Positions 30,583 through 54,158 of a stretch of 56,851 nt of DNA are shown here, piece after piece. Positions within the stretch are counted from its first letter, which is position 1. Each line of letters begins with the position of its first letter. The DNA comes from Gemmatimonadota bacterium (GTDB lineage: Bacteria > Latescibacterota > UBA2968): assembly GCA_026706845.1 (NCBI GenBank), contig JAPOXY010000063.1, positions 1 through 56,851 on the forward strand, given 5' to 3'. The position numbers and the translations under genes are program-made. Below the pieces are notes generated by a model, which was not told the DNA's origin, made no database searches, and saw nothing but the letters and a program-made list of their open reading frames with translations.

Positions 30583-30591
30583 TCAATACCT

Positions 30592-32016: not shown

Positions 32017-32019
32017 TTT

Positions 32020-32775
32020 TTAATCTCCATAAAATTCCGCTACAGGTGGAAAATGATCATCTGGCGGCAATGTATCGGGTACCAGTCTCAAGGGATCTGT
32101 GACGACATGTTTTTTGCCGGTGTATTTCGCCGCCGCATCGACGAAAATTATCACGTATCCCACCCGCCAATCATCGGTTTGATTCGGTCCCGCGGTGTGA
32201 AATGTCATTCCGTGATGAAATGTGCAATCCCCTGCTTGAAGAGGATGCGTTACCCTGGTGCGCCACGCGATTTCCGGTGCGAATTCCCGCCATCCTTCCT
32301 GATTATTTGTCGCCATGTCCGGTACGTCTTTCATTTCGTGCGATCCCTGTACAAATGACATGCATCCCATTTCTACGGGTGTGTCCTGTAGCGCGACCCA
32401 CGCCGATAGGGCATTGGAATTGCGATCATAGGGCCATTTCACCAGGTCTTGATGGAATGCCGTTGGTACTTCGAGTTCTGGCATTTTTGCCAGAATGTGA
32501 TCGTGCCAGATCCGCAATCGCACGCCCGCAATTTTTTCTGCGACTGCGGCGACATTCGGGTGTTGTGTCAAGTTTCGCAATACTTCGTCATCTCGCCATA
32601 CATTTACTTTTTGGTTAAATGGACGGTTTGGATCTTTTGGCATTGCTTCGAGAATATCCAGGGATGCCTGACGAAATTTTGCAACTTCATCCGGTGAGAT
32701 GATCTGCTGGATTTTTATGACGCCATCGCGCCGGTATGTTGCCAGCATTTCATCTGTGATATCTGTCGGTGTCAT
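32020..32775 (-). CDS. Phytanoyl-CoA dioxygenase (PhyH) family protein
   Basis: A 251-residue Fe(II)/2-oxoglutarate oxygenase with H108 and D110 (AFHQDLVKWPYD) and a distal His in FHHGMTFHTAGPN; an Arg follows in DWRVGYV. It lies between two sulfatase genes with 3- and 17-base gaps, so it is clearly part of the same operon. It may oxidise a sulfated or alkylated substrate handled by that operon, in the manner of alkylsulfatase-type oxygenases; this is inference. Confidence 0.9.
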   Translation of the reverse strand: MTPTDITDEMLATYRRDGVIKIQQIISPDEVAKFRQASLDILEAMPKDPNRPFNQKVNVWRDDEVLRNLTQHPNVAAVAEKIAGVRLRIWHDHILAKMPELEVPTAFHQDLVKWPYDRNSNALSAWVALQDTPVEMGCMSFVQGSHEMKDVPDMATNNQEGWREFAPEIAWRTRVTHPLQAGDCTFHHGMTFHTAGPNQTDDWRVGYVIIFVDAAAKYTGKKHVVTDPLRLVPDTLPPDDHFPPVAEFYGD

Positions 32776-32792
32776 GGTTTTTTCCTTTTTAC

Positions 32793-34361
32793 TTATCCAC
32801 GCTTTGCGAGGATATTGTCCCAGGGTTCAATCCCGCACCGCTCTGCCCAGGTGTCGTAAATTGCCGCGAGTTCGGCTACGACATCGGGATTTTCATTTGC
32901 CAGATCGTCGAGTTCCGATCTGTCGGCTTCAATATCGTATAGTTCCCAATCGCCCGGGTAACGCTTTACCAGTTTCCAATTGTCTTTGCGAACTGCGCCA
33001 TTGCCTTCGTGTTCCCATATCAAATATTCTTTGCCGTTGTCCCGGTTGTCAAAAATTGGGGTCAACGAGGTGCCTTCGAGTGGCAAAATTTCGTGTCCAT
33101 TATAAGTTTCGGGATACGCTGCGTCTGCTATATCGAGGCAGGTTGCCATGACGTCTGTAAGCTGACCGGGTTGTTCGCGCAATGCGCCGTGATCCGTTAT
33201 GCAATCGGGCCAGTGTGCGATAAAGGGCGTTGCAATGCCGCCTTCGTGAACCCAGTGCTTGTACAGGCGAAATGGCGTGTTGGATACATTGGCCCAAGGT
33301 ACTCCGTAGCTCTGGTACGTAGTTTCGTCACCCGGCATGATGTTTGGATCGTTGCCGCGTTGGACTGGCTGTCCATTGCGCGTGGTGGCCGGTGCAATCG
33401 CGCTGCGTCGCATGCCGCCTCCCAGTTCTTCGGCGCATCCTCCATTGTCGGCTAAAAATACGATCAGGGTGTTGTCCAGTTGCCCGGTCTCTTCGAGGGA
33501 TTGGACGATGCGCCCAATGCCCTGATCCATGCGATCGACCTGCGCGGCATAAACTTCCATGCGCCGTTGCTGCCACGCCTTGTGGTCGGCTTCTTCCCAG
33601 GGTACTTGAGAGGGGTCGCGGTCGCTCAGTCCCCATTCGGGTTTTAAGATGTCCATTTCGCGCATGCGCGCCAGACGCTCTTCGCGCAGTTGATCCCATC
33701 CCGCGGCAAAACGGCCTTTGTATTTTGCAATATCTTCATCGTGCGCGTGCAGGGGCCAATGGGGCGCAGTATATGCGGTATATAAAAAGAATGGCTGATC
33801 CCTGTTTGTCTGCGCGTGTTCGCGGATATAATCCGCCGCCTGATCGCTGATAGCATCGGTTAAAAAGAAATCCTCTGGAAATTCATCCACTGTAATTTGC
33901 TCGTTGTCTCGCGTGAGTGTTTGCGGCTTCCAATAATTGGCGGCACCAGTAATGATGCCAAAAAAGCGATCAAATCCGCGCTGGCAGGGCCAACTGTGTT
34001 TGGGACCGTCTGCATCTGTATGCCGCGTAATATGCCATTTGCCGCTCATATAGGTCGCATATCCCACGGTTTTGAGTACTTCGGCAATGGTTACGCTTTT
34101 AAAGTTCAGATCGCCCCGATACCCTTCGTATTCCCGGTCATCCATCATGTGTCCCACACTGGCTTGATGGGGATGCAATCCCGTGAGCAACGACGCCCGC
34201 GTGGGGCAGCACCGCGCTGTGTTGTAAAATTGGGTGAATCGCAACCCATTGGCAGCAAGTTGATCTAAATTTGGCGTGTGGATTTCACCGCCGTAACATC
34301 CAATATCAGAATAGCCCATATCGTCGTTCATAATCAGCAAAATATTTGGTTGCTCTGCCAT
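32793..34361 (-). CDS. Arylsulfatase-type sulfatase
   Basis: A 522-residue sulfatase with metal-binding MNDDMGYSDIGCYGG near the start, formylglycine site CCPTR (C51 the modified residue, C-x-P-x-R), YMSGKWHITRH and FLADNGGCAEELGG. The last 60 residues (NWKLVKRYPGDWELYDIEAD) are the usual C-terminal subdomain. It lacks a signal peptide. It is the first gene of the sulfatase-fucosidase operon on the minus strand and is not a close copy of the sulfatase at 30592. The exact sulfate ester is unknown. Confidence 0.93.
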   Translation of the reverse strand: MAEQPNILLIMNDDMGYSDIGCYGGEIHTPNLDQLAANGLRFTQFYNTARCCPTRASLLTGLHPHQASVGHMMDDREYEGYRGDLNFKSVTIAEVLKTVGYATYMSGKWHITRHTDADGPKHSWPCQRGFDRFFGIITGAANYWKPQTLTRDNEQITVDEFPEDFFLTDAISDQAADYIREHAQTNRDQPFFLYTAYTAPHWPLHAHDEDIAKYKGRFAAGWDQLREERLARMREMDILKPEWGLSDRDPSQVPWEEADHKAWQQRRMEVYAAQVDRMDQGIGRIVQSLEETGQLDNTLIVFLADNGGCAEELGGGMRRSAIAPATTRNGQPVQRGNDPNIMPGDETTYQSYGVPWANVSNTPFRLYKHWVHEGGIATPFIAHWPDCITDHGALREQPGQLTDVMATCLDIADAAYPETYNGHEILPLEGTSLTPIFDNRDNGKEYLIWEHEGNGAVRKDNWKLVKRYPGDWELYDIEADRSELDDLANENPDVVAELAAIYDTWAERCGIEPWDNILAKRG

Positions 34362-41053: not shown

Positions 41054-41785
41054 TTAAAAATAAGGCAATGGGAGCACGAGCCAGTCTTCGAGCAAGAATC
41101 CGACGCGCCCAATCAGCAGTGAGAGACGCGCCATGATGGTGTAGCCAAATGATGCGCCAAACGAGATCATGAGGAACCAGATGCCAATTTTGGACGCCAC
41201 GCCCACGGGACCAGTGTGTTCGACAGAATAAAAGAAATACACGAGTACTGTAACGACGCCGACCAGAATAATGAGCAGATTTAATCCTTCCCAGGTAGCT
41301 GATATGGGTTGCATGGTCGGTTCCATTTGGGCCAGCAAATTGGCCGCAATAGTACGTGGGATGGTCAGTCCCGCTCCCAGACCGACCACAAATGCGAATG
41401 CGATACGACTGAGCCAGCTAAATTTCGCCGAGGAGAGTTGGGTGAGCATGAAGAGGCCGAGCAATGTGGGCACGATGAGCCACAAATCGCTCATGCTCTC
41501 ACTGTCGAGTTCAGAGAAAGGCTCCACGACATCGGCCCAAAGCACGGTGTACCAAATTTGGGTGAGAGAGTATGCGGCTGCGACCCCCACATAGAGATTT
41601 TCGGCGAATTTGAAGAGGGGGTTGTCTTTGTAGAGAAAGCTATAGAGCGACAAGGTGATGCCAGCTGCAATAAACGTGCCAAAGCCGGTCCAGTTTGCGG
41701 AGAGTTTGTCCCAGCCAAAGAGGTAGATATTGATGGCGGCAAATATGAATAAGAAGGCAATAAAAATGACCTGATCGCGGCTCAC
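41054..41785 (-). CDS. Integral membrane protein of GlmL cluster
   Basis: I do not recognise this 243-residue protein. It has about seven predicted spans, the clearest at residues 5-23, 33-50, 62-80, 100-115, 125-150, 170-190 and 205-230. It starts with GTG; the start overlaps the stop of the upstream gene by 4 bases (GTGA), with GGAGGT before it. It is the last gene of the set that begins with the GlmL-like ATPase, and it probably belongs to the same membrane complex as its three neighbours. No conserved charged or cysteine motif is evident. Confidence 0.8.
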
Positions 41786-42612
41786 TGGGCACCTCCTCTC
41801 TGTCGTCCATAAAGGAAGTACATCACATTGCCCAGGAGGATGAAGGCGATGATGATGAGATGTACAACGGATTGGGCACCCATACCCGCGGTGGCTTTGC
41901 CCGATGTCTCAATCAGGGTCTCGTATTCGGCGGCACCGGCTAATCCGCCCATCATGCCGTTCATTTGACCCGATTGTAAGTAGGGATATTGATCGGGTGC
42001 CATAACAGCAGTACAGCCAATGCCAAATTTGAATTTGTAGCGTTCTTGCCCGTAGGGTATCCAGACACCATCCGGCGTGTTGCCCGATGCCAGGCAGATC
42101 ACATAGTCGAAGTCCGCCAATCCCTTTATGTTTTTGGTGACAGGTAATTCGGTCGTATCGCTACCTTGCAGATCTTTTTGGAATGCATTATGAAAGTCGT
42201 TGCCCATGTTGATGACCAGTGAACCGAAGCCCGTTTTATAACCCAGATACGTATAATCCTCACCGTATTGTGCACCAAATTCTTTTGATGTGGTATCAAA
42301 TGCTTCTTGTGCAAGGCCAACAGCATCTACCCAGTGTGACATCCCAACTACTTTGACATTGCGCTTGAAACAGTGGCGCAAAACTGCAATGGCCATGGGC
42401 TGTACTTCGGGCATGGATCCGGGTCCGTAGTCAAAGGAGATGAGAATGGTGCCGTTTTTTTCTGCCACTTCTTCGATCGTGTCGTAAATCGCTTTGACAT
42501 CTTCCGTGATGTGGATAGGCAGGCGTATGGCAGCCAACGAGGGAATGATGATACCGAGCGCGACAAAGACAAAGATGATACGGCGGTCGATATTGAGCAA
42601 AAATTCTTTCAT
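41782..42612 (-). CDS. Membrane protein with Rossmann-like domain
   Basis: An unrecognised 276-residue protein. A hydrophobic span lies near the N-terminus (about 12-28) and another at the C-terminus (about 247-268). Between them is a soluble part with alternating strands and helices (ILISFDYGPGSMPEVQPMA, VKVVGMSHWVDAVGLAQE, DYVICLASGNTPDGVW), suggestive of a Rossmann-like or periplasmic sensor fold. The ATG overlaps the previous stop by one base (TAATG), behind GGAGGT. Its gene order in the GlmL cluster implies a subunit of the same assembly. Confidence 0.78.
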   Translation of the reverse strand: MKEFLLNIDRRIIFVFVALGIIIPSLAAIRLPIHITEDVKAIYDTIEEVAEKNGTILISFDYGPGSMPEVQPMAIAVLRHCFKRNVKVVGMSHWVDAVGLAQEAFDTTSKEFGAQYGEDYTYLGYKTGFGSLVINMGNDFHNAFQKDLQGSDTTELPVTKNIKGLADFDYVICLASGNTPDGVWIPYGQERYKFKFGIGCTAVMAPDQYPYLQSGQMNGMMGGLAGAAEYETLIETSGKATAGMGAQSVVHLIIIAFILLGNVMYFLYGRQRGGAQ

Positions 42613-43268
42613 TATTCACCTCCGCCGAGATAAGAGCGTTCGATGCCAAAAATGATGCGTAATGCCGTGGCGACAGCACCAAGGCTGACGCCGAGCAAAA
42701 TGCCGCGCTTGGCCGCCAGATTGGGCACATCCATCATCCATTGGGCAATTTGGGGAAGCTCCTGATAAATTGATGCGCCAATGGGTACACGGCCGATCAT
42801 CACGATAATAGCCGATACGAGCAGGATTGCCGCTTCTGGCGTGCGTGCGCGAAAGGTTCGATAGGCAGCAGATGCGATGAAAAACGCGAGAATAGAGAAC
42901 ATGGTGGCATCAGCTGGTACCTGTACATACTTAAACATCCAGTCAAAAGGACCCGAATCAAGTACCTGGGAGGTGAAAGGACCTTGTCCATTGTTGTAGA
43001 TTGCGAAGATGGACATGAGCACAAAGCCCACGAATACAAGGAAACTATATCCCCATCCGGCTTGTTGCCGCTGAACGCGACTCCAGTGCAAGCGCATCAG
43101 GCTGTAGATGCCCAACACCAGAGCGAAGGCCGCGATAATTCGATTCCAGGTTGTCAAGTCCTGCTCGAGATTTTGGGCGCCGCTGTATGGAATGTAGTAA
43201 ACGAGAATACCAATCATACCCAGAACAAAGGCGATGATCAGCGGAAATGTACGTCGTAAAAAAAGCAT
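42612..43268 (-). CDS. Integral membrane protein of GlmL cluster
   Basis: An unrecognised 218-residue protein with about six spans (RRTFPLIIAFVLGMIGILV near the start, then segments at about 44-60, 75-90, 117-133, 145-160 and 190-205). Start at 43268 lies 14 bases after the DUF6754-like gene. No enzymatic motif is visible. It is packed between two other membrane proteins with overlaps of one base or short gaps, so it is expected to be made at the same time and place. Confidence 0.78.
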   Translation of the reverse strand: MLFLRRTFPLIIAFVLGMIGILVYYIPYSGAQNLEQDLTTWNRIIAAFALVLGIYSLMRLHWSRVQRQQAGWGYSFLVFVGFVLMSIFAIYNNGQGPFTSQVLDSGPFDWMFKYVQVPADATMFSILAFFIASAAYRTFRARTPEAAILLVSAIIVMIGRVPIGASIYQELPQIAQWMMDVPNLAAKRGILLGVSLGAVATALRIIFGIERSYLGGGE

Positions 43269-43282
43269 AAAAGAATCCCCTG

Positions 43283-44491
43283 TTAATATGCCGTGAAAAT
43301 ATGCGTGAGTGTTTGATTTCCAAGGGTTGCCAGGAGCGTGCCCAAAATCATGGCGATTAAGAGCACGACTTTGCCGATGTCCTGTCCTTTGAGACTGCCC
43401 AGCAGTTTGGGTTCGCGAGAGAGGTACGCGCTTGCTGCATAGAGTTCTTCACCCATGAGCGTATAGTCGCAGGTAGTAATAAAAAAGGGTAGTTGGGTGT
43501 AGGAGTCAGTGCCCGCGATCTGAATAGCATTGATGGAAGCACCTGTTTCTGCCAGCAAGAGCGATTCGGCGTAGAAGGATCCCATCATGATGTTGGTGGC
43601 TGGTCTATCGCGCACCATCATACCGTCGAGGGCTGCGGCATAGCTGAATTGTTCTGTCGCTGCCAAAAAGACCATGTCGTCGGAATATGCGTCGGGACGG
43701 CCCGCATTGAGATAGGATTCTTTAACGACTTCCTGACTTACGGCCATGACAACTGAGTAGCGATTGGCAACGCGCAATTCGGTATTAAATTCGGCTGTAC
43801 GGTGGGCTACACGAGAGAGAACATTGATTGCCGCAATGGTGGAAACACTGTCCATGTCATGCAATCCATGCACAAAGAGCACGGGTTTGCCCATTTCAGT
43901 GGCGCGACCAAGGGCTTCGTCGAGGGCTTCGAGACCGGCGATGCGGCGGATGAAGAGTTCGCGTTTTTGGGCGAGGAGAATGCCGCCTAAAATGATGAGA
44001 GAGAAGATTGTGCCGATGACGAAGTTGTTATCTTTGGTCCAGTTGAAAAAATTTTCATAGGCTTCTGCGCTTGCGATTGCAGAGGGAAATGATTCGCCAG
44101 AGGGAAGATGAGCCGTGACCTGTACGTAATAGGTTTTGCCATTTTCAATGGCGATTCTTTTAGGTGGGTCGGTTGGAGCAACATATGCGGTGATTTTGGC
44201 AAAGATTTTTTTGTATGTCTCTTCGCCATGTCCAAAGGTGGCAGGATCGGTGGATTGCAGATTCGCTGCATCGAACTTAGCGGCATGAAAAGGCCCATTT
44301 TCAGATTCGCCGATTGAAATTGTGTATCTGATTTGTTCGGCTCTCTCATAGGATTCTGGGTAGTCCCAGGTGACGGTGATGCTGCCTCCTGAGTCGTTGG
44401 GGGTGTCTTCGGCTTTGACACCGGTGGGTTGTTGTGCATACAACTGTGCCGCGCAGAGCACGAGTGTGATGCAACACAAAAAATATCTCAT
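43283..44491 (-). CDS. FN3 and DUF6754-like membrane protein
   Basis: A 402-residue protein. An N-terminal signal peptide (about 1-20, cleavage near LYAQ) leads to a fibronectin type III domain (about 22-145, with SGGSITVTWDYPESY and NGKTYYVQVTAH). A membrane span follows near 160-178, then a cytoplasmic-looking domain of about 190 residues with RNAELRVANRYSV-like and SDDMVFLAATEQFSYAA segments that I recall from the DUF6754 family. A last span is at the C-terminus. The frame can be extended to 44659, but the ATG at 44491 has GGGAG at 7 bases and yields a proper signal peptide. It is the likely extracellular-facing core of the GlmL cluster complex. The DUF name is from memory and unverified. 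Confidence 0.75.
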   Translation of the reverse strand: MRYFLCCITLVLCAAQLYAQQPTGVKAEDTPNDSGGSITVTWDYPESYERAEQIRYTISIGESENGPFHAAKFDAANLQSTDPATFGHGEETYKKIFAKITAYVAPTDPPKRIAIENGKTYYVQVTAHLPSGESFPSAIASAEAYENFFNWTKDNNFVIGTIFSLIILGGILLAQKRELFIRRIAGLEALDEALGRATEMGKPVLFVHGLHDMDSVSTIAAINVLSRVAHRTAEFNTELRVANRYSVVMAVSQEVVKESYLNAGRPDAYSDDMVFLAATEQFSYAAALDGMMVRDRPATNIMMGSFYAESLLLAETGASINAIQIAGTDSYTQLPFFITTCDYTLMGEELYAASAYLSREPKLLGSLKGQDIGKVVLLIAMILGTLLATLGNQTLTHIFTAY

Positions 44492-44513
44492 ACGCAATCT
44501 CCCGATGGGTCGT

Positions 44514-45632
44514 TTACTCTTGGATGAGTTCGACGTTGGCGCGCGGGACAGTGGCGCCTTCGCCATTGTCAAATTCGACTTCGAGTACGCGCACATGGGT
44601 TTCGGATTCGACTGTTTGCAATTCGGGGGGCAGTGCCGTGACTTTGCCCACCTGACCAAAATAGGGCGCGCGAATCACGCGCAAGAGTGCGCCTTCAATG
44701 AGGCCTGGATGATCGGATTCTTCGGTTTGTTCGTGGATGCTGGATTCTGGAATGATGATTTCGGGACGCAGAACACCTGCGCGAATCTGGGTGGCACCTG
44801 AGATAGAGGCTTCTTTGCCGTTGTTTTCGCTCAGTATGTCAAAGGTTTTGTGCGCCATTGCGATGGGGCCAAAGCCTTCGGTGACGATGACGGTGAGGCC
44901 AATATTCTCGGTGCCGGTGATGGCTACGCCGAGGTCGTAACCGAGCAGGTCTCGCAAATCGGCGTCGCGGATGCCGCCTCCAATGATGCCAACGGCGCCG
45001 CTTTCTCGCGCTTTGTCAATTACGTCGAGGGTGAGCAGGTTGCCGCCTACGACGATTTTTCCCGCGCACGAGTCGTCGATTTGGTCGGGGGTTAATATTT
45101 GATCTGGCTCTTCGGAGATGACGTGCAGAGGCCCCCAGGTTTCACCGCCTACGCCAAAGATGCCCTGCACAAATGCACCTGTGGTTTCGACAATGACGCC
45201 TTCTTCGGGCAGGATTTCGATCACGTTGCCATCTATGTATGCCTGTACCTGAACGGGGCGCGGGGGCGCGCGAAAGATGACCTGTCCGGTAATTTTGGAG
45301 ATGCTTTCGAGGGTGCCACTAATGGGTGCTTTAACGGTGGTTTTGAACCATTTGATGAAGGGACGGGTTTCGGCAATGGGTTCGTCGGCTTCGACGGGGT
45401 CGCCTTCGCGTTTGAGCATGTAATTGGGCAGTTCTTCCGGCGTGCAACTCAAGATGTTGACCAGGTTGAGGGTGGTGACGTTGCCGGGCAGGTGCGTACG
45501 TGCGACGACTTGATCGCGCGTTACGCTATCGCCTTGTGATACGACGACCTCACCTTTGAGGGGGAGTTGGCGCTGGCGTTGAAGAAGGGTCTGCGGGGTG
45601 ACGCGAAGGCCGGGTGTGTATGCATGTGCCAT
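44514..45632 (-). CDS. Barrel-sandwich/KOW-like cytoplasmic protein
   Basis: An unrecognised 372-residue soluble protein. Residues 25-150 contain repeated turns of the biotinyl/lipoyl barrel-sandwich type (EGDPVEADEPIAETRPF, VKAPISGTLESISKITGQVI, IDGNVIEILPEEGVIV), reminiscent of RnfC and similar membrane-complex adaptors, although no biotinylated lysine is evident. The middle (190-260) has glycine-rich GIIGGGIRDADLRDLLGYD. The C-terminus (310-372) resembles an SH3/KOW fold (GALLRVIRAPYFGQVGKV, ATVPRANVELIQE). It lies between the ATPase gene and the membrane genes and may link them. A possible promoter sits before it. Confidence 0.72.
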   Translation of the reverse strand: MAHAYTPGLRVTPQTLLQRQRQLPLKGEVVVSQGDSVTRDQVVARTHLPGNVTTLNLVNILSCTPEELPNYMLKREGDPVEADEPIAETRPFIKWFKTTVKAPISGTLESISKITGQVIFRAPPRPVQVQAYIDGNVIEILPEEGVIVETTGAFVQGIFGVGGETWGPLHVISEEPDQILTPDQIDDSCAGKIVVGGNLLTLDVIDKARESGAVGIIGGGIRDADLRDLLGYDLGVAITGTENIGLTVIVTEGFGPIAMAHKTFDILSENNGKEASISGATQIRAGVLRPEIIIPESSIHEQTEESDHPGLIEGALLRVIRAPYFGQVGKVTALPPELQTVESETHVRVLEVEFDNGEGATVPRANVELIQE

Positions 45633-45662
45633 AGAGTAATACCTGAGTTAATTGGATAACGG

Positions 45663-45690
45663 AATATACAATGCGTGGGTTACTTTACAA
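45663..45690 (-). promoter_or_regulatory. Candidate internal promoter
   Basis: Minus-strand TTGTAA (45685-45690), 16 bases, TATATT (45663-45668), in the 86-base gap between the GlmL-like gene and the barrel-sandwich gene. It would give the five downstream membrane-cluster genes their own transcription, separate from the fatty-acid genes. Confidence 0.4.
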
Positions 45691-45718
45691 GAAAATAAAT
45701 TAAATCATGGCCTTGCTT

Positions 45719-47506
45719 TTACCGGGGATAGAGGTCGAGGATTTTGCTCCACTGGCTTATTTGATCGGCGCGTTCGGATTGATTTTCGGCAAATACAATG
45801 GGGCGACCGCGTCCGTCGAGGATCAGCCCGGCGGTGCCCCCTTTGACTGTGGTGTTCAGTTCTCTACCCGGCCCTGCACCTGCGTCTGTGTTGCGCTCGG
45901 GTTGCAAGGTGAGGTGTGCTTCTCGATCGGCTTCGAGGGGGAAGTGTAGAAGGTCGCCAATATTCAGGGTGCCGGATTGGGTTCCGTCGGGAAGGCCGAT
46001 TTCGTATTGCGTACAGGGTGTGCCGATTTTGCCCTGGGCGATGGGCGCGATACACGTGCCGAGGTAAATGAGGCAGTCGCGTTCAAAAACCTGAGTGGCG
46101 GCGATTTCGTTGACCGATGAAAGTACGCCGAGGTGTGGCATCATAAAGATGCTGTCAACGGCGAGGCGCGTGATGCCGTCGGGCTGGAAGGCGTCGATGA
46201 GCATGGCGGCTGTTTGCATTCGACGCGGGGCGTGAGATAGAACGCCGCCGCTTCCTACGAGGAGGTCGAGGTCGCGCATTTTGATGAGGCTTTCGCCGCC
46301 TGCGGATTGGTCAAATACATCGGACAGAGTGCGCTCTGCCTGTACGCCTTTGAGACCCACGGCCAGTGCGCGGTGCTGAACAAAGGCCAGGCGCAGGGCT
46401 TCGCGGGCAATGGCCTGTTCGACCTGAAGTTCTTCGAGCATTTGCGGAATTGTGGTGGGGCGGATCATTTTGTTTTTGATGCGGTCTCGCAGGTCGGCTT
46501 CGTCGATTTTGAAAGGTACCCAGCGCATGACGTCGTTGAGGCCCGCTTCTGCGAGTACGTTGGATACGCTGTAGGACATGCCGAGATTGGCAGATACCGT
46601 GCGGTTGAAGATATCGTCAAAGACGCTGAATACGTCGGTGGTGGCGCCGCCTATGTCAACGCCCACGACATTGATATTTTGTTGTTTGGAGACGGTTTGC
46701 ATCATGAGGCCAACTGCGCCAGGTGTGGGCATGATGGGCGCGCCTGTCCAGGAGATGAGTTTTCGATAGCCGGGGGCTTGCGCCATGACGTGTTCGAGAA
46801 AGAGGTCGTGGATCACGTGGCGAGCCGGTCCGAGATTTTCTTCTTCGAGCGTGGGACGGATGTTTTCCGTGGTGGTGAGGGCTGTTTTGTCGCCCAGGGT
46901 GCGTTCGATTTCCGGCGCGGCATCTTTGTTTCCCGCGTAAATGACGGGCAGTTGATATCCCGATCCAAATCGCGGTTTGGGGTCGGCTGCGGAGATAAAT
47001 TCGGCCAGTTCGACGACGTGCGAAACGGTGCCGCCATCTGTGCCGCCCGAAAGGAGTACCATATCGGGGCGCAACTGGCGAATGCGTTCGATTTTTTCGT
47101 GGGGCTGCCGCCCGTCGTTGGACGCGAGAATGTCCATGACAATTGCGCCTGCGCCGAGGGCGCAACGCTGCGCGCTTTCGCCTGTCATGGCCTGAATGAC
47201 GCCGCCGACCATCATTTGCAGACCGCCGCCTGCGCTGCTGGTAGAAATGTAGATGTCAACCCCGAGATTGTCCTGCGCGGGTGTGATGATGGTTTCGCCG
47301 TCGAGAATTTGCCTGCCAGAGAGTTCTTCGACTTCTTGAATGGCGTTGAGTACGCCGCGCGTGACGTCTTCATAGGGGGCTTCAACTGTGGTAGGTGCTT
47401 CGCCTCGATAGGTTTGGCGATAGACATCGCCCTTTTTTTCTATGAGGATGGCTTTGGTCGTGGTGCTGCCGCAATCGGTAGCGATGATGACGTCGAGTTT
47501 ATCCAT
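45719..47506 (-). CDS. GlmL/MutL-type ASKHA ATPase
   Basis: A 595-residue protein of the glutamate mutase accessory (GlmL, MutL) family. It has two actin-like phosphate loops, TDCGSTTTK (10-18) and GVDIGGATTDVFS (282-294), and an adenosine motif GSGGVLSHAPRR near 455, plus LLSGGTDGG (151-159). Known GlmL proteins reactivate the B12-dependent glutamate mutase GlmES, but no mutase subunit is encoded nearby. The long frame reaches 47623; 47506 is chosen because homologues begin at the first strand (MDKLDVIIATDCGS). Its start lies 8 bases inside the preceding small gene. It may provide ATP-driven conformational work to the adjacent membrane complex. Confidence 0.88.
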   Translation of the reverse strand: MDKLDVIIATDCGSTTTKAILIEKKGDVYRQTYRGEAPTTVEAPYEDVTRGVLNAIQEVEELSGRQILDGETIITPAQDNLGVDIYISTSSAGGGLQMMVGGVIQAMTGESAQRCALGAGAIVMDILASNDGRQPHEKIERIRQLRPDMVLLSGGTDGGTVSHVVELAEFISAADPKPRFGSGYQLPVIYAGNKDAAPEIERTLGDKTALTTTENIRPTLEEENLGPARHVIHDLFLEHVMAQAPGYRKLISWTGAPIMPTPGAVGLMMQTVSKQQNINVVGVDIGGATTDVFSVFDDIFNRTVSANLGMSYSVSNVLAEAGLNDVMRWVPFKIDEADLRDRIKNKMIRPTTIPQMLEELQVEQAIAREALRLAFVQHRALAVGLKGVQAERTLSDVFDQSAGGESLIKMRDLDLLVGSGGVLSHAPRRMQTAAMLIDAFQPDGITRLAVDSIFMMPHLGVLSSVNEIAATQVFERDCLIYLGTCIAPIAQGKIGTPCTQYEIGLPDGTQSGTLNIGDLLHFPLEADREAHLTLQPERNTDAGAGPGRELNTTVKGGTAGLILDGRGRPIVFAENQSERADQISQWSKILDLYPR

Positions 47507-47852
47507 GGTTTTTGTTTTCCAGGGTTTCAATATGGCGAATGAGGCAGGGAATGCTTTCTCGCTTTTCCAGAAAGCGCGTGAAGCGGTCAAACTCGGCTGT
47601 TGAAGAAAAGATGATGGATACAAAGGGCGACAAAAAAGTCAAAAGTTGGCTGCCAATATAGTTAAAGGGTCGTCCGGTTTCAAGTAACATAATAGCAGGT
47701 GCTGTGAGTCTGCGCTTCACGATGAAGGCGGCGGCTTTTTCGGCGAGGATTTCGTCTTCTTTGGTGATGGCACTTTCGGGGGGGGAGACGGCAAAGGCAT
47801 GGGCGCAGTAATTCTTAAGCCGGGTCAATATTGATGTGTTTTTGGACGACAT
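47499..47852 (-). CDS. Small conserved-looking protein before GlmL
   Basis: A 117-residue protein. I recall small proteins with a similar pattern (EKAAAFIVKRRLTAPAIMLL, then a hydrophobic GSQLLTFLSPFVSIIF and RFTRFLEKRESIPCLIRHIE) but cannot name the family. It has one strongly hydrophobic segment at about residues 68-85, flanked by charged helices, so it may be membrane-associated. The ATG at 47852 lies within the upstream gene (38-base overlap), and its end overlaps the GlmL-like start by 8 bases: a sign of tight translational coupling with both. Confidence 0.65.
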   Translation of the reverse strand: MSSKNTSILTRLKNYCAHAFAVSPPESAITKEDEILAEKAAAFIVKRRLTAPAIMLLETGRPFNYIGSQLLTFLSPFVSIIFSSTAEFDRFTRFLEKRESIPCLIRHIETLENKNHG

Positions 47853-48237
47853 GGTAGATCTCTGAGGGATTTTTCGAACGCAGGAATTGACCGCGAAATG
47901 TGTCGAGGCGATGCGGTTTGGCAAAAGGACTTAAGAAGACGCCGTCGGGATGATGTGCGGCGCGGCGAAAATTTGTCCATAAATATTGCCTGTGCGTACC
48001 GATATGTGAAATGGTAAAACCGCGATCATTGAGAACATAGTGCGTTGGAAAAAAATAACGGGTCATCGCCGCGGTGAGCAATACGAGTGAAAGAAAGGCG
48101 AAGGTGATGCTCTGAAAGCTCACGCCGACAATAAACGCGACGCCCAGGATGATGAGTACGAGTAAAACAGATTTTGCCAAAGGCTCTTCGCGCAGGGGAT
48201 GTGAGGTCCAGGTTTTTGAAGCGTCAATACTTGTCAT
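47815..48237 (-). CDS. Two-span membrane protein, PH-like tail
   Basis: A 140-residue protein. After a short polar N-terminus it has two membrane spans (SVLLVLIILGVAFIVGVSF at about 27-45 and SITFAFLSLVLLTAAMTRYF at 47-66). A soluble tail (HYVLNDRGFTISHIGTHRQY, FRRAAHHPDGVFLSP) follows, like the bacterial PH (bPH) domain seen in membrane-bound YdbS-type proteins. The open frame continues upstream to 48678 but is there only a shadow of lipM. An ATG at 48246 is the alternative start; neither has a strong Shine-Dalgarno, and both overlap the lipM end, so reinitiation is likely. Confidence 0.6.
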   Translation of the reverse strand: MTSIDASKTWTSHPLREEPLAKSVLLVLIILGVAFIVGVSFQSITFAFLSLVLLTAAMTRYFFPTHYVLNDRGFTISHIGTHRQYLWTNFRRAAHHPDGVFLSPFAKPHRLDTFRGQFLRSKNPSEIYHVVQKHINIDPA

Positions 48238-49063
48238 TCCATTCATAGGTTGCGTATTTTTCGGCGATGAGGCGCTGGGTTTCGGCGATTTCGGTTTCGC
48301 TGAGTGTGGTTTCAACAAGCTGGATGTTAAAGGTATTTTGAATGCCTTGCCGGATGGCTGTGGCCGCTGTGTCGAAATTGATGGGGTATGCGAGGGCTTC
48401 AGAGAGCGAGGTGGTGTGGCGGTCGAGTTCGCCTGCAAAACGCTTTTGCAGGCCTGGTTTGTCGCCGGGCAGAAGGTCGGCGATTTGTTTGTGTTCTGCG
48501 CCGAGCAGGAGCGATCCGTGCTGCAAGAGCATTGTGCCGATGCGCTGCTGCGCACTGCCGATAAGTTTGCGCCCCTTAAATTTGACTTCGTATTGCGCCG
48601 TGCTGGTAAAACAGGGCGCGGTGAGTTCTTTACCGCGCGGTGAGGGCTGTGTTTGGCGACGGGATTCAAAGGTTGCATCGACGCCGAGAGCGCGAATACC
48701 CGCCAGGAGACCCTCGCTGATTTTGCGATAGGCTTCGTTGATATTGCCCCCCATTACGGGATTGTCGGCAGGGCAGACAACGCTGTAGGTCAGTTCGTTC
48801 CAGTGCAAGACAGCGCGACCACCGGTGGGACGACGGACAATGTCGATACCGCGCTCGCGCACTTTTTGGACATCGACTTCGCGGCTGATACGCTGGGCAT
48901 ACCCAAAGGAGACCGCGGGTGGTTGCCACCCATAAACGCGAAAGGCGGGCTGAGCACCTGTTGCTATTGATCGCACGAGGGCTTCATCTACTGCCATATT
49001 AAAAAAGGCGTTTCCATGTTGGGTATTCAGGAAACGCCATGTGGGGGGATTAGATTGTGTCAC
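48224..49063 (-). CDS. lipM: Octanoyltransferase / lipoate ligase family (LipM-like)
   Basis: A 279-residue protein of the lipoate-protein ligase A/octanoyltransferase fold. It shows AFFNMAVDEAL near the N-terminus, RRPTGGRAVLH, TYSVV, and, later, the reactive cysteine region APCFTSTAQYEVKFKGRKL followed by IGSAQQR. The Cys in APCFTS matches the nucleophile of LipM/LipL amidotransferases, so transfer of octanoyl from acyl carrier protein to GcvH or other lipoyl domains is more likely than ATP-driven lipoate ligation. Its location right after the acyl carrier protein and fatty-acid genes suits that source. It begins 2 bases after rnc. Confidence 0.83.
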   Translation of the reverse strand: MTQSNPPTWRFLNTQHGNAFFNMAVDEALVRSIATGAQPAFRVYGWQPPAVSFGYAQRISREVDVQKVRERGIDIVRRPTGGRAVLHWNELTYSVVCPADNPVMGGNINEAYRKISEGLLAGIRALGVDATFESRRQTQPSPRGKELTAPCFTSTAQYEVKFKGRKLIGSAQQRIGTMLLQHGSLLLGAEHKQIADLLPGDKPGLQKRFAGELDRHTTSLSEALAYPINFDTAATAIRQGIQNTFNIQLVETTLSETEIAETQRLIAEKYATYEWNDKY

Positions 49064-49853: not shown

Positions 49854-51104
49854 TTAGTTGCGAAACTTACGCAGGATGAGTACTGCGTTGTGACCACCAA
49901 AGCCAAAAGAGTTACTGATGGCGATTTCAACGGGTATTTCTCGCGCTTCATTGGGTACGTAATCGAGGTCGCATTCTGGATCGGGTGTTTCATAGTTGAT
50001 CGTGGGCGGTACTACATTGTGGTGAACTGATAGGGTTGCTGCGATGGTTTCAATCGCACCCGAAGCTCCCAAAAGATGTCCGGTCATGGATTTTGTCGAA
50101 CTGACGGCGAGCTTTTTGGCCCGGTCGCCAAATACGGATTTGATGGCGGCTGTTTCTGCCGGATCGCCCACAGGTGTTGATGTGCCGTGTGCGTTGATAT
50201 AAGACACGTCTTCGGGATTGATCTGCGCCTGTCGCATGGCGCGGCACATGGCGCGGGCACCCCCCTCGCCGCCAGGTGCCATACCGGTAATGTGATAGGC
50301 ATCGCCAGTGTAGCCAGTTCCTACAACTTCGGCATAGATAGTGGCACCCCGTTGTGTTGCGCGTTTGAGTTCTTCCAGAACAAGCCCGCCAGCGCCTTCG
50401 CCAATTACAAATCCATCTCGGTCTGCGTCAAAGGGACGACTGGCTTGCGTTGGGGCATCGTTGCGGGTTGAAAGCGTTCGCGCTGCGGCAAATCCACCGA
50501 CTGACATTGGGGTAATGGCAGCTTCTGCCCCCCCTGTGATCATGACATCGGCTTCGTCGTCCCAAATTTCGCGGGCTGCGTTGCCAATGGCATGGGCTGC
50601 CGAGGCGCAAGCTGTGACGGTGGTATAATTGGGGCCTTTGGCACCGAGGTGGATGGATACCTGACCTGCGGACATGTCGGGGATCATCATGGGTACAAAA
50701 AGCGGACTGATGCGTCTTGGACCATCTTTGCGATAGGCTTCGTGCTGATTCTCAAAAGTCTGGATGCCGCCAATGCCCGAGCCAAATACAACCCCGATGC
50801 GTTCGGGCTGTTCATTACTGATATCGAGACCTGCATTTTCTACAGCCTGTACAGATGATGCAATGGCATACTGTGTAAAGAGATCCATGCGCCGCTGGCT
50901 TCGACTGTCAATGCCAAAGTGCGCTGGATCAAAGTTTTTGATTTCGGCGGCAAACTGCACGCGGAAATCAGTGGCGTCAAATTTTGTTATGGGGCCAACA
51001 CCTGTTTGTCCATTGCACAATGCTTCCCAATAGCTTTCCGTGGTATTGCCATTGGGGGCGAGTGTACCCAGGCCGGTGATGACCACTCTGCGTTGTCTGT
51101 TCAC
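49854..51104 (-). CDS. fabF: 3-oxoacyl-ACP synthase II
   Basis: A 416-residue condensing enzyme that elongates acyl-ACP with malonyl-ACP. The catalytic triad is visible: Cys in TVTACASAAHAIG, His in NAHGTSTPVGD and His in SMTGHLLGASGA; GFGGHNAVL closes the chain. The start codon is GTG, with GGAGGT 6 bases upstream, and the Shine-Dalgarno is directly against the base of a 12-bp hairpin (51116-51146). It follows acpP in the type II fatty-acid cluster. Confidence 0.95.
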   Translation of the reverse strand: MNRQRRVVITGLGTLAPNGNTTESYWEALCNGQTGVGPITKFDATDFRVQFAAEIKNFDPAHFGIDSRSQRRMDLFTQYAIASSVQAVENAGLDISNEQPERIGVVFGSGIGGIQTFENQHEAYRKDGPRRISPLFVPMMIPDMSAGQVSIHLGAKGPNYTTVTACASAAHAIGNAAREIWDDEADVMITGGAEAAITPMSVGGFAAARTLSTRNDAPTQASRPFDADRDGFVIGEGAGGLVLEELKRATQRGATIYAEVVGTGYTGDAYHITGMAPGGEGGARAMCRAMRQAQINPEDVSYINAHGTSTPVGDPAETAAIKSVFGDRAKKLAVSSTKSMTGHLLGASGAIETIAATLSVHHNVVPPTINYETPDPECDLDYVPNEAREIPVEIAISNSFGFGGHNAVLILRKFRN

Positions 51105-51115
51105 TAAATGACCTC

Positions 51116-51146
51116 CTGGAGGCTGGAGATTGGTTCCAGCCTCCAG
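51116..51146 (-). promoter_or_regulatory. 12-bp hairpin between acpP and fabF
   Basis: Perfect stem CTGGAGGCTGGA/TCCAGCCTCCAG (51116-51127 with 51135-51146), 7-base loop. No U run follows; instead the fabF Shine-Dalgarno starts next to its foot. It is better read as an RNA processing or stability element, perhaps an RNase III target, than as a terminator. It could raise acpP mRNA level over fabF. Confidence 0.6.
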
Positions 51147-51154
51147 TTTCCGAG

Positions 51155-51394
51155 TTAATCCAGACGCTCGTCTAAGTATGCGATGGCGTCGCCAACTGTT
51201 TCGAGCTTCTCGGCGTCTTCATCGGATATTTCCATGTCAAATTCTTCTTCGAAAGCCATGACCAGTTCGACTGTGTCGAGCGAGTCTGCGCCCAGATCGT
51301 CAATAAAATGGGCGTCGGCATTGACGCTATCGGCATCGACGCCGAGTTGATCAACGATCAGGTCGGTAACTTTTTGTTTAATATCATCGGTCAT
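51155..51394 (-). CDS. acpP: Acyl carrier protein
   Basis: A 79-residue acidic helical protein with the phosphopantetheine site [10 protein letters not shown] (Ser in DSL). It carries growing acyl chains in fatty-acid synthesis and can supply octanoyl groups to the LipM-like enzyme encoded downstream. Length and charge pattern are as in other bacteria. It lies between fabG and fabF in the usual order. Confidence 0.97.
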
Positions 51395-51428
51395 GTAAAG
51401 CCCTCCGTGATTAGTGTGTAGTGATTAT

Positions 51429-52175
51429 TTACATCACCATTCCGCCATCGACAACGAGCACCTGTCCGGTAATATAGGCCGCGTCGTCAGAGGCGAGAAA
51501 GGCTGCGGCAGCAGCGACATCTTCGGGGCTGCCGAGTTTGCCCAGTGGAATCTGTTCGATCAACTGTTCTTGTATTTTGGCGTTGAGTTTGGCGGTCATG
51601 TCCGTTGGAATAAAACCGGGCGCAATGGCGTTGGCCGTAATATTGCGGCTGGCCAATTCTCTGGCTACGGATTTGGTCAGGCCAATAAGACCCGATTTGG
51701 ATGCGGCATAATTGATCTGCCCGGCATTGCCCAGAAGTCCCACGACCGATGAGACATTGATGATGCGACCAGTTCGCGCTTTCATCATGGGACGGGTGAC
51801 GGCTTTGATACAATGGTACGCACCTTTGAGATTGACGTCAAGAACTGCATCCCACTCGTCTTCTTTCATACGCATCAACAAATTGTCGCGGGCGATACCC
51901 GCATTGTTGACGAGTACATCGATTTTGCCCCAGGTGTCGAGGACGGTCTCGACAAGGGCTTCAACAGATTCGGCATTGGAGACATCGGTCTGTTGTACAA
52001 GGGCTTCACGGCCTTGTGCGCGGATTTTTTCGGCTACAGCTTCAGCAGCTTCTGTACTTTGGCTGGCACATACGGCAATGTTGGCTCCTTCGCGCGCGAA
52101 GCGCAGGGCAATGGCCTCGCCAATGCCGCGAGATCCGCCCGTTACAAGGGCTGTTTTACCTGTGAGTCGGTTCAT
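51429..52175 (-). CDS. fabG: 3-oxoacyl-ACP reductase
   Basis: A 248-residue short-chain dehydrogenase: NADPH motif TGGSRGIGEAIA near residue 12, NNAGI, catalytic Ser in INVSSVVG and YAASKSG (Tyr and Lys). It reduces 3-oxoacyl-ACP with NADPH in the elongation cycle. It begins 28 bases after fabD ends and is followed by acpP. Confidence 0.96.
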   Translation of the reverse strand: MNRLTGKTALVTGGSRGIGEAIALRFAREGANIAVCASQSTEAAEAVAEKIRAQGREALVQQTDVSNAESVEALVETVLDTWGKIDVLVNNAGIARDNLLMRMKEDEWDAVLDVNLKGAYHCIKAVTRPMMKARTGRIINVSSVVGLLGNAGQINYAASKSGLIGLTKSVARELASRNITANAIAPGFIPTDMTAKLNAKIQEQLIEQIPLGKLGSPEDVAAAAAFLASDDAAYITGQVLVVDGGMVM

Positions 52176-52203
52176 GAGTATAGTTACCTGTCAGTTGAAT
52201 ACT

Positions 52204-53121
52204 CTAAAGTTGTTCAATAGCTTCCAATGTGCCGGCTTCGTGAACTGGAATATTTCGGTTAATTCGGCGCATGAGACCCTTGAGCACATTGCCTGGCCCC
52301 ACTTCGAGAGCCTCGGTCATGCCTTCTGCAATGAGTTGTTGCATGGATTCGGTCCAGCGAACCGGCGAAATAACTTGCTCGATCAACAGGTCTTTGAGCA
52401 GAGCCGGGTCGCGTGTGGGTTCAGCCGTGACATTGGGGATCACGGGGATTTGCGCCTGGGCAAATGGCACATCGTCGAGTATGTCGGTCAGTGCTGTTAT
52501 GGCTGGCTGCATCAGGGCCGAGTGAAATGCGCCGCCTACGGGCAATAGCACGGCCCGCCTGGCTCCCAATGCCTTGGCTTTTTCGAGTGCTTCGTCAACG
52601 GCGTTTTCCTCGCCAGATAGGACCACTTGCCCGGGGCAATTAAAATTGGCTGTTGTGACATGGCCCGAAGAACTGAGATCATCGCAAAGCTGAATCATTA
52701 CGTCGTCGTCGAGACCGAGTACTGCAGCCATGGCACCTGGTCGAATTTTTCCTGCGACTTGCATGGCATGTCCGCGAACGCTGACGACCCGAAAGCCGTC
52801 TGCGATGCGCATGACACCTGCCGCAACGAGAGCGGCGAGTTCTCCGACACTGTGTCCAGCCACGAGGTCGGGGTGTATCCCCCGGCTTTTGAGCACTTCA
52901 AGGGCGGCAATGCTGTGGGCAAAAATTGCCGGTTGTGTGACTGCGGTTTGTTTGAGTGACTCGGCAGGACCGTTGAAGCAGAATGATTTGATTTCTATGT
53001 CGAGCACGTCGTCGGCAAGATCAAAAATTTTGTGTGCTTCTGGTGCGGTCCTGTACAGGTCGTGTCCCATACCAACAGATTGGGAGCCTTGCCCTGGAAA
53101 TAGGAAAGCTTTTTTTGTCAT
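52204..53121 (-). CDS. fabD: Malonyl-CoA:ACP transacylase
   Basis: A 305-residue acyltransferase. It has GQGSQSVGMG near the N-terminus, the nucleophilic Ser in GHSVGELAAL and the catalytic His in GGAFHSALM. It loads malonate on acyl carrier protein. The fabH stop codon is directly next to its start (TTAAATG-like junction at 53121/53122), which indicates coupled translation. Confidence 0.96.
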   Translation of the reverse strand: MTKKAFLFPGQGSQSVGMGHDLYRTAPEAHKIFDLADDVLDIEIKSFCFNGPAESLKQTAVTQPAIFAHSIAALEVLKSRGIHPDLVAGHSVGELAALVAAGVMRIADGFRVVSVRGHAMQVAGKIRPGAMAAVLGLDDDVMIQLCDDLSSSGHVTTANFNCPGQVVLSGEENAVDEALEKAKALGARRAVLLPVGGAFHSALMQPAITALTDILDDVPFAQAQIPVIPNVTAEPTRDPALLKDLLIEQVISPVRWTESMQQLIAEGMTEALEVGPGNVLKGLMRRINRNIPVHEAGTLEAIEQL

Positions 53122-54114
53122 TTAATAAGCCCAGGTTAGCAGGGTGCTGCCCCAGGTATATCCCGCACCGGCACTGGCGAGCAGCACATTGTCACCGCGG
53201 CTGAGGCGGCCCTGTTTGACCGCTTCAGATAGGCCAATGGGAATGGTGGCAGCCGAGGTGTTGGCATAGCGGTCGATATTGACCACAACGCGATCTTGGG
53301 GTATATCCGTGCGTTTGACGCATGCGTCGATAATGCGCTTGTTGGCCTGATGCGGTACAAAAAGCGCGATGTCTTTGCCGACAAGGCCGTTGCGTTCGAG
53401 AATTTGAGCGGAAACTTCGGCCATTTTGGGAACTGCAAATTTAAAAACTTCGCGACCATCTTGATAAATATAGTGCATTTTCTTATCGACGGTTTCACGA
53501 GAGGCCGGAAGCAGACTGCCGCCAGCGGGTTGGCGCAAATATTTTACGCCGCTGCCATCAGAATAGAGGATAAAGTCTTTAAGTCCCAAACCGGGTTCGC
53601 CGGGTTCGAGTAAAACCGCGCCCGCGCCATCGCCGAAGAGCACACAGGTCTCGCGATCGGTATAGTCTGTGATGCTGCTCATTGTGTCGGCTCCAATGAC
53701 GACTACGCGTTTGTGTGCGCCTGTTTCAACAAATTGCGCTCCCACCATTAGAGCATATAGAAAACCACTGCAAGCTGCCGATAGGTCGAAAGCCCAGGCA
53801 TTTGTGGCGCCAATTTGGTCCTGTACCAGACAGGCTGATGACGGAAATACCATGTCGGGCGTGATGGTCGCGACGATGATCAGGTCGATATCTCTGGCAT
53901 CGAGTCCTTTGTTGTGCAGAATGGATTCCAGAGATTTTAGAGCCATGAAAGATGTGCCCAATCCCTCGTCGAGGATGCGGCGTTCTCTGATGCCTGTGCG
54001 GGATGTGATCCACTCGTCGGATGTATCGACCATTTTTTCGAGGTCGGCATTGGTCAGCTTTTGTTCTGGTACGTAGTGCCCCACCCCGCTGATGGTGGCT
54101 GTAAGGGGATACAT
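53122..54114 (-). CDS. fabH: 3-oxoacyl-ACP synthase III
   Basis: A 330-residue initiating condensing enzyme. The triad is Cys in LSAACSGFLYALMVG, His in FVPHQANKRI and Asn in RYANTSAATIP. It joins acetyl-CoA (or a branched starter) to malonyl-ACP. The start at 54114 (ATG) is chosen over a TTG at 54135, which the open frame allows. plsX, which usually sits between rpmF and fabH, is absent here. Confidence 0.95.
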   Translation of the reverse strand: MYPLTATISGVGHYVPEQKLTNADLEKMVDTSDEWITSRTGIRERRILDEGLGTSFMALKSLESILHNKGLDARDIDLIIVATITPDMVFPSSACLVQDQIGATNAWAFDLSAACSGFLYALMVGAQFVETGAHKRVVVIGADTMSSITDYTDRETCVLFGDGAGAVLLEPGEPGLGLKDFILYSDGSGVKYLRQPAGGSLLPASRETVDKKMHYIYQDGREVFKFAVPKMAEVSAQILERNGLVGKDIALFVPHQANKRIIDACVKRTDIPQDRVVVNIDRYANTSAATIPIGLSEAVKQGRLSRGDNVLLASAGAGYTWGSTLLTWAY

Positions 54115-54158
54115 AATAATTACTCTGCTCCTCAAAGTCTGCGCGACATTAGACCAAA

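Follow-up and report, generated by a model that had tools for sequence, protein, structure and literature searches.

A probable service unit with a MutL-family ATPase for a conserved DUF6754 membrane module

The window considered here, i.e., the whole stretch of DNA that was analyzed, comprises the 56,851 nucleotides (nt) of contig JAPOXY010000063.1 of a Gemmatimonadota bacterium (assembly GCA_026706845.1; GTDB lineage Latescibacterota, UBA2968). Eight open reading frames on its minus strand, at positions 41054-48237, were named A to H in the order of transcription. Together with their relatives in other genomes, they probably represent a conserved system without a mutase that is centered on the membrane proteins E, F, G, and H (EFGH), with the MutL-family ATPase C and the protein D as its ATP-driven service unit. 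Judged from sequence comparisons, C-D most likely is an ATPase plus adaptor that assembles, activates, or energizes EFGH. An earlier, sequence-only reading had placed a GlmL-like ATPase at the center of the cluster. The cluster is better described as centered on EFGH, which can be repeated in tandem and is accompanied by a single-copy C-D service module.

The Gene Cluster

The eight genes are as follows.

A, 47815..48237, minus strand: 140 amino acids (aa); two transmembrane (TM) helices predicted and a C-terminal domain
B, 47499..47852, minus strand: 117 aa; no TM helix predicted; no consistent Pfam family
C, 45719..47506, minus strand: 595 aa; GlmL/MutL-family ATPase with an additional C-terminal region
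D, 44514..45632, minus strand: 372 aa without TM helix; N-terminal part barrel-sandwich-like, C-terminal part KOW-like, and a region between them
E, 43283..44491, minus strand: signal peptide, FN3 domain (outside), TM helix, DUF6754 domain (inside), and TM helix, as predicted from hydropathy and charges
F, 42612..43268, minus strand: 218 aa; six TM helices predicted
G, 41782..42612, minus strand: 276 aa; TM helix, Rossmann-like α/β domain (predicted outside), and TM helix
H, 41054..41785, minus strand: 243 aa; at least five TM helices predicted (five in a hydropathy scan)

These coordinates and spacings confirm that the genes mostly overlap or nearly do so, as the sequence-only reading had it. 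The overlaps amount to 38 nt between A and B, 8 nt between B and C, 1 nt between F and G, and 4 nt between G and H, and gaps of 86 and 14 nt are found between C and D and between E and F, respectively. E probably starts at the ATG at 44491 (the codon at 44494 is CGT), which leaves a gap of 22 nt after D. Four membrane proteins had been counted before, and E, F, G, and H stand as such; with the two helices predicted in A, however, the total becomes five of the eight. In comparison with four relatives of the same genus, the ratios of nonsynonymous to synonymous substitutions (dN/dS) of all eight genes are 0.07-0.43 (A, 0.23-0.43; B, 0.07-0.13; C, 0.08-0.10), which shows purifying selection on the cluster.

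Gene Order, Copy Number, and Co-occurrence

A scan of genome contigs with an alignment of DUF6754, the domain that characterizes E, yielded at least 582 relatives. Of these, the 80 best were retained, corresponding to 79 loci, and gene order was determined with profiles trained on these loci and on Latescibacterota stretches (L and G numbers below denote loci and genomes). The 79 loci carry ~15 phylum-level labels, as deposited, including WOR-3/Stahlbacteria, Cloacimonadota, Zixiibacteriota, Fermentibacteria, Planctomycetota, Eisenbacteria, Neomarinimicrobiota, Riflebacteria, Muiribacteriota, and Methylomirabilis. Of the 82 E genes that could be tested, i.e., those with at least 3.2 kb of sequence after them, 80 have F, G, and H next in line on the same strand, the exceptions being L078 and L090. 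F comes directly after E in 101/103 testable cases, and B precedes C in 47/50.

The membrane module is often repeated, since 25 of the 79 loci contain at least two E genes. In a FastTree phylogeny of 132 E domains, from which domains shorter than 180 residues and L039-L042 had been dropped, the first, second, and last tandem copies fall into different groups, mostly by position, and the E of the window groups with the last-copy domains (support 0.98). L080, L110, L129, and L136 do not fall cleanly into these groups, the numbering is blurred where a contig end truncates an array, and support is low at many inner nodes. The ABCD genes are single wherever they were seen beside tandem EFGH arrays. 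Together with the position-wise groups of E, this fits one service unit with several paralogous membrane complexes. A tandem duplication of G alone (EFGGH) was seen in genome G018 (L049:970-2606).

The two parts of the cluster also tend to occur in the same genomes. Among 64 Latescibacterota genomes, 54 contain DUF6754 and 57 contain MutL over the cut-off. In the joint counts, for which three fragments (27 to 29 bits, one family) were scored as absent, both are found in 51, only DUF6754 in 3, only MutL in 3, and neither in 7. According to tblastn searches of 20 Latescibacterota stretches, the genes form an ABC and a DEFGH block, which lie 4 to 7 kb apart in five of them, with peptide-transporter-like genes in between in two of these five. 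Whole-genome counts, made in the genomes of 50 of the 79 loci, gave a MutL-family gene in 49/50 EFGH genomes and a D match also in 49/50, although that in G068 is weak and looks diverged (1.7e-13). In a sample of 294 Planctomycetota genomes, DUF6754 was found in 76, MutL over the cut-off in 80, and both in 70; D was found in 71, 68 of which also have DUF6754. That the cluster genes are chance neighbors without a functional link could be argued from the groups in which other genes come between ABC and D-H or the two blocks occupy different regions of the genome. The order under ~15 phylum labels, the tandem repetition as a unit, and the fusion of C and D described below refute this, and its probability is negligible.

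The ATPase C Is Not GlmL

GlmL/MutL is described in PMC4682846 as a chaperone that re-activates glutamate mutase. The genome of the window contains a single MutL gene and has no match to PF06368 (glmE), as the sequence-only reading had claimed for its surroundings, nor to PF01642 (methylmalonyl-CoA mutase) or PF09043 (lysine/ornithine aminomutase). Over the cut-off, glmE is found in 0/50 EFGH genomes; glmS was not searched for by itself. Four weak glmE matches in these genomes stayed below the cut-off, three of them inside an MM_CoA_mutase gene. In Latescibacterota, glmE is present in 1/64 genomes (G057), where a second MutL adjoins it. A gene of the MM_CoA_mutase family is present in 40/51 genomes, whilst no PF09043 match was obtained in 46/51 scanned genomes, including that of the window. 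Under many phylum labels, the genes keep their order in the absence of glmE, which the sequence-only reading had named as support for its view. Neither of the two outcomes that it had named as refuting was observed, in that the neighbors do not vary freely and glmE is not co-inherited with C.

Its assignment of C to the GlmL-like ASKHA ATPases stands at the level of the family, but not at that of GlmL itself. C matches PF13941 MutL over residues 9-480 (2.3e-126, 422.7 bits), and the stretches DCGSTTTK and DIGGATTD, which we take to be the ASKHA phosphate motifs, are invariant in 19/19 C proteins, except for I285 (≥90%). However, C scores only 220.1 bits against the NCBIfam GlmL model (NF040745), below its equivalog cut-off of 475, and 199 bits against the GlmL-related ornithine degradation model Or-4 (NF040744; cut-off, 600). 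With 595 aa, it is ~130 aa longer than the GlmL model of 459 aa. In a tree of 74 MutL proteins, after removal of L039-L042 and of matches shorter than 380 residues, the cluster-type C and the fused Neomarinimicrobiota proteins discussed below form one group (support 99/97). This group and the remaining C-D forms are set apart by a long branch both from the Peptoclostridium and Rhizobium GlmL proteins (L157 and L158, annotated as the GlmL type), where glmS and glmE adjoin the gene, and from L159 and L160, labeled as ornithine-type from a reading of their neighbors. The GlmL of G057 is not in the tree because of the length filter, and the deep order is unsure owing to the long branches. Low score, greater length, and separate clade all indicate that C is not GlmL itself. 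No solved relatives were found by sequence for C alone or for a C profile. Among plasmids, C has matches in 10 records at 27-31% identity, and the annotated ones are of the GlmL type.

Could C nevertheless act as a normal GlmL, re-activating a B12-dependent mutase whose gene lies elsewhere, with incidental neighbors? Its membership of PF13941 and the frequent MM_CoA_mutase genes would agree with this. We consider it very improbable, since the genome of the window lacks matches to all three mutase families, no EFGH genome has glmE over the cut-off, a second MutL is present where glmE does occur, and C scores below the GlmL cut-off.

Protein D and Its Association With C

The D family resembles known domains only weakly. 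At E values up to 1, RnfC_N is matched by 15/21 members, Biotin_lipoyl by 16/21, and KOW and NQRA_N by 4/21 each; the D of the window reaches 20.9 bits against RnfC_N, below the cut-off of 25.6. At E up to 1, the 21 members together match 16 families, and no 51-kDa, SLBB, or iron-sulfur part is among them. No lysine is conserved at ≥90% among these 21 members, so that D is not a usual lipoate or biotin carrier. Searches by sequence for solved relatives of D gave only chance-level matches.

C and D appear to belong together as a unit. C lies at most 3 kb upstream of D in 59/69 Planctomycetota genomes compared, after rows with short-type or second-copy MutL and with diverged D had been dropped, and both are encoded in a single open frame in 10 of the 50 EFGH genomes examined. 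Two of these fusions, both from Neomarinimicrobiota, lie in the cluster and are followed by EFGH, viz., one of 1014 aa in L131 (G109) and one of 874 aa, ending at the contig edge, in L126 (G105). In the other eight genomes (G070, G071, G073, G076, G078, G079, G098, and G108), the fusion is a second, diverged C-D copy; four of these copies were read as loci L149, L150, L151, and L156. L162 is an additional one-frame case, and L161 contains a diverged adjacent C-D pair. In the MutL tree, the in-cluster fusions branch from within the C clade and the second copies lie elsewhere, so that C and D were fused more than once. EFGH genes were not seen in the stretches read of L149, L150, L151, L156, L161, and L162. 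These diverged copies possibly belong to a further system with a different client.

The Membrane Module and the Small Proteins

E covers the whole model of PF20539 DUF6754 (4.8e-114, 380.2 bits, cut-off 27). The earlier description of it as an FN3-DUF6754-like membrane protein is further borne out by a profile match of its FN3 domain to titin (5.4e-17) and by Pfam fn3 matches in 5/26 members. Loop charges suggest that the DUF6754 domain of E is located inside and the domain of G outside. The structure model of E is poor, with a mean predicted local distance difference test (pLDDT) score of 72 and residues 308-355 below 50. The AlphaFold model of G has a mean pLDDT of 93.5, and its best VIA-align match is the ε subunit of carbon monoxide dehydrogenase (3cf4_G; Z 10.3, root mean square deviation 3.0, 145 residues, 10% identity), with general Rossmann proteins scoring Z 8-9. 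A Foldseek search with this model gave no match at E up to 0.001, and by sequence only chance-level matches to solved proteins were found. Judged from the model, a Rossmann-like fold can safely be assigned to G, whereas any closer assignment is not secure. In H, residues D54, E62, R127, H190, and R220 are invariant in 28/28 proteins. Mean column identity is 37-48% in E to H against 67% in C and 63% in D, so that C and D are the slowest-changing parts. Homology between E and G and between F and H was considered and rejected (hhalign probabilities 1.6 and 0.7), despite the TM-α/β-TM layout that E and G have in common. In L168 and L169, from two Planctomycetota genomes, either the open frame that includes E extends to as much as 1108 aa or long insertions are present in F and G.

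The B, F, G, and H of the window have no Pfam match at E 0.01, and in alignments of these families each Pfam family is matched by at most 6/27 members. Every match of B is limited to 1/17 members, those of H to at most 1/28 per family, and G has no Pfam family. The bacterial PH domain bPH_6 is weakly matched by 3/8 A members (best E 1.3e-4), the A of the window itself being unmatched. None of the eight proteins matches an anti-phage defense family of PADLOC at E 0.01 (0 families), and PHROGs was discarded as a means of identification, as it gave two weak, uninformative matches. The DUF6754 domain has no match among plasmids, and the term DUF6754 was not found in the open-access literature searched. 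The number of promoter-like sites (10) does not differ from that expected by chance (9.0). Terminator-like sites exceed shuffled sequences (23 versus 12.5, standard deviation 3.6), but 16 of the 23 are on the plus strand, and transcript ends were therefore not deduced from them.

Proposed Mechanism

On balance, we lean toward a membrane complex EFGH with a dedicated service module ABCD, in which C-D assembles, activates, or re-activates EFGH by means of ATP. EFGH would form an integral membrane complex that exposes domains on either side, with the FN3 domain of E and the α/β domain of G facing outward and the DUF6754 domain of E facing inward. In the service module, C would be the ASKHA-type ATPase of the MutL family and would work as a unit with the adaptor D, in which a barrel-sandwich-like part that is not acylated is combined with a KOW-like part. 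The small protein B would work with C and D, and A would hold them near the membrane. C-D would bind the cytoplasmic side of EFGH, probably at the DUF6754 domain of E, and use ATP to assemble the complex, to set its active state, or to re-activate it after turnover. A single C-D unit may serve up to three paralogous EFGH sets. The sequences establish the gene order, the co-occurrence, the C-D fusions, the paralog classes of E, the purifying selection, and the lack of a match to three known B12 mutase families in the genome of the window, whereas the physical complex, the ATPase activity, the identity of the client, and the direction of action are inferred. The sequence-only reading had already suggested that the ATPase powers or assembles a membrane machine; co-occurrence and C-D fusions fit this, and the action on EFGH remains its conjectural part.

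Several observations weigh against this explanation. Of the 294 Planctomycetota genomes, 6 have DUF6754 only and 10 MutL only (some of these being shorter or other MutL types), and G266 contains B-C-D without a DUF6754 match. G088 (L105; a contig of 3.7 Mb) has two EFGH sets and D without a MutL match, which is either an exception or a gap. Similarly, G025 (90% complete) has DUF6754 without MutL, G002, G044, and G048 have MutL without DUF6754, and G081 has C without a D match. In several groups, C-D and EFGH occupy separate chromosomal positions, C is separate from D as well in the WOR-3 loci L137 and L138, and A is missing from many loci. The diverged C-D copies away from EFGH indicate that units of the C-D type can have other clients. 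Finally, the Fisher tests of co-occurrence ignore phylogeny.

Alternatively, C may be a continuous motor, whose ATP hydrolysis, relayed via D, drives transport or an energy-demanding reaction in EFGH. The same gene order and co-occurrence would be expected, and C also matches Hydantoinase_A (4.8e-6) and, under the cut-off, BcrAD_BadFG (4.6e-4). Such a role would be in line with related ASKHA proteins of the BadF/BcrAD and hydantoinase A kinds, which couple ATP to difficult reactions, and with the invariant residues D54, E62, and H190 of H. However, we know of no ASKHA transport motor, several EFGH sets per C-D unit suit a server better than a stoichiometric motor, and F and H show no consistent transporter family (TMD0_ABC is matched in only 3/27 F members). 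We therefore regard a motor as unlikely, although it is the alternative that we take most seriously.

If C-D indeed services EFGH, the range of GlmL-type ATPases, hitherto linked to soluble B12 enzymes, would extend to a membrane client, and a defined set of proteins would be available for co-purification. Families B, D, F, G, and H lack a convincing Pfam family. Since many little-studied groups of bacteria have kept the gene set together, a sizeable part of bacterial membrane biology seems uncharacterized. Some of the Planctomycetota contigs with DUF6754 measure several megabases and may derive from cultures.

Neighboring Genes

Immediately upstream of A, and overlapping it by 14 nt, is the following gene, a lineage neighbor rather than a component of the cluster.

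Lipoate/octanoate protein ligase-like gene, 48224..49063, minus strand: match to PF21948 (2.6e-35)

Genes for a ketoacyl synthase, a short-chain reductase, an acyltransferase, and an acyl carrier protein (ACP) synthase III lie directly upstream of this lplA-like gene (49854-54135). Neighbors were surveyed in 120 stretches, in which all names other than LplA are our own reading of the sequences. Genes resembling gcvT-gcvH-gcvPA-gcvPB are located upstream of A in 9/120 stretches, a gcvPB-like gene is found beside the block in 5 more, and plsX-fabH-like genes are nearby in 5/120. The glycine-cleavage-like genes were seen beside the A-B-C block in L070, L072, L075, L076, L084-L086, L140, and L146, and also in L129, L136-L138, and L143. 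A lipoate-ligase-like gene lies within 2 kb on the A/B side in 12/21 Latescibacterota stretches, six of which are of the genus of the window. Such glycine cleavage, lipoate, and fatty-acid neighbors recur in some lineages only, and may be signs either of a common process or of an ancient gene arrangement.

On the basis of these neighbors, C-D could instead serve a soluble enzyme that acts in one-carbon, lipoyl, or fatty-acid metabolism. EFGH would then be linked to it only indirectly, e.g., as an envelope or lipid system that shares its regulon. Yet, the neighbors are limited to certain lineages, whereas C and D track DUF6754 in the whole-genome counts, and D has no conserved lysine that could be lipoylated. 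This possibility appears rather improbable to us.

Other neighbors were noted as well. ExbB-like genes lie close to EFGH in loci of WOR-3 and Fermentibacteria, and genes of the ExbB/ExbD kind adjoin or lie near C-D in Zixibacteria-type loci (L059-L063, L070, L072, L075, L076, and L086; L093, L104, L141, and L148), and TonB-receptor-like genes are found near EFGH or D in some lineages. Elsewhere in the window (29347-34361), two sulfatase-family genes are close to an α-L-fucosidase-family gene, resembling a locus for the breakdown of sulfated, fucose-rich polysaccharides.

Comparison With Known Systems

The closest known systems each share one part with the cluster. The RnfC/NqrA barrel-sandwich proteins weakly resemble D, but the other parts of RnfC and NqrA are unmatched in it. 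Biotinyl and lipoyl domains show a similarly weak barrel-sandwich likeness, but D lacks the conserved lysine that would bear the acyl or biotin group. With Or-4, C has the MutL-family ATPase domain in common; Or-4 belongs to an ornithine system, whilst the genome of the window has no match to the lysine/ornithine aminomutase family. What C has in common with GlmL is a match over the full length of PF13941 and the retention of both stretches presumed to bind phosphate; it differs by its greater length, its score below the NCBIfam cut-off, its separate clade, and a genome without a glmE match. The proposed servicing of EFGH by C-D would resemble the reported action of GlmL on glutamate mutase, but with the client in the membrane. 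The chances seem to us evenly balanced that EFGH constitutes a new class of membrane complex, with up to three paralogous types per genome in many phyla and with a MutL-family ATPase and a barrel-sandwich adaptor of its own, and that C is the first GlmL-type ATPase with a membrane client.

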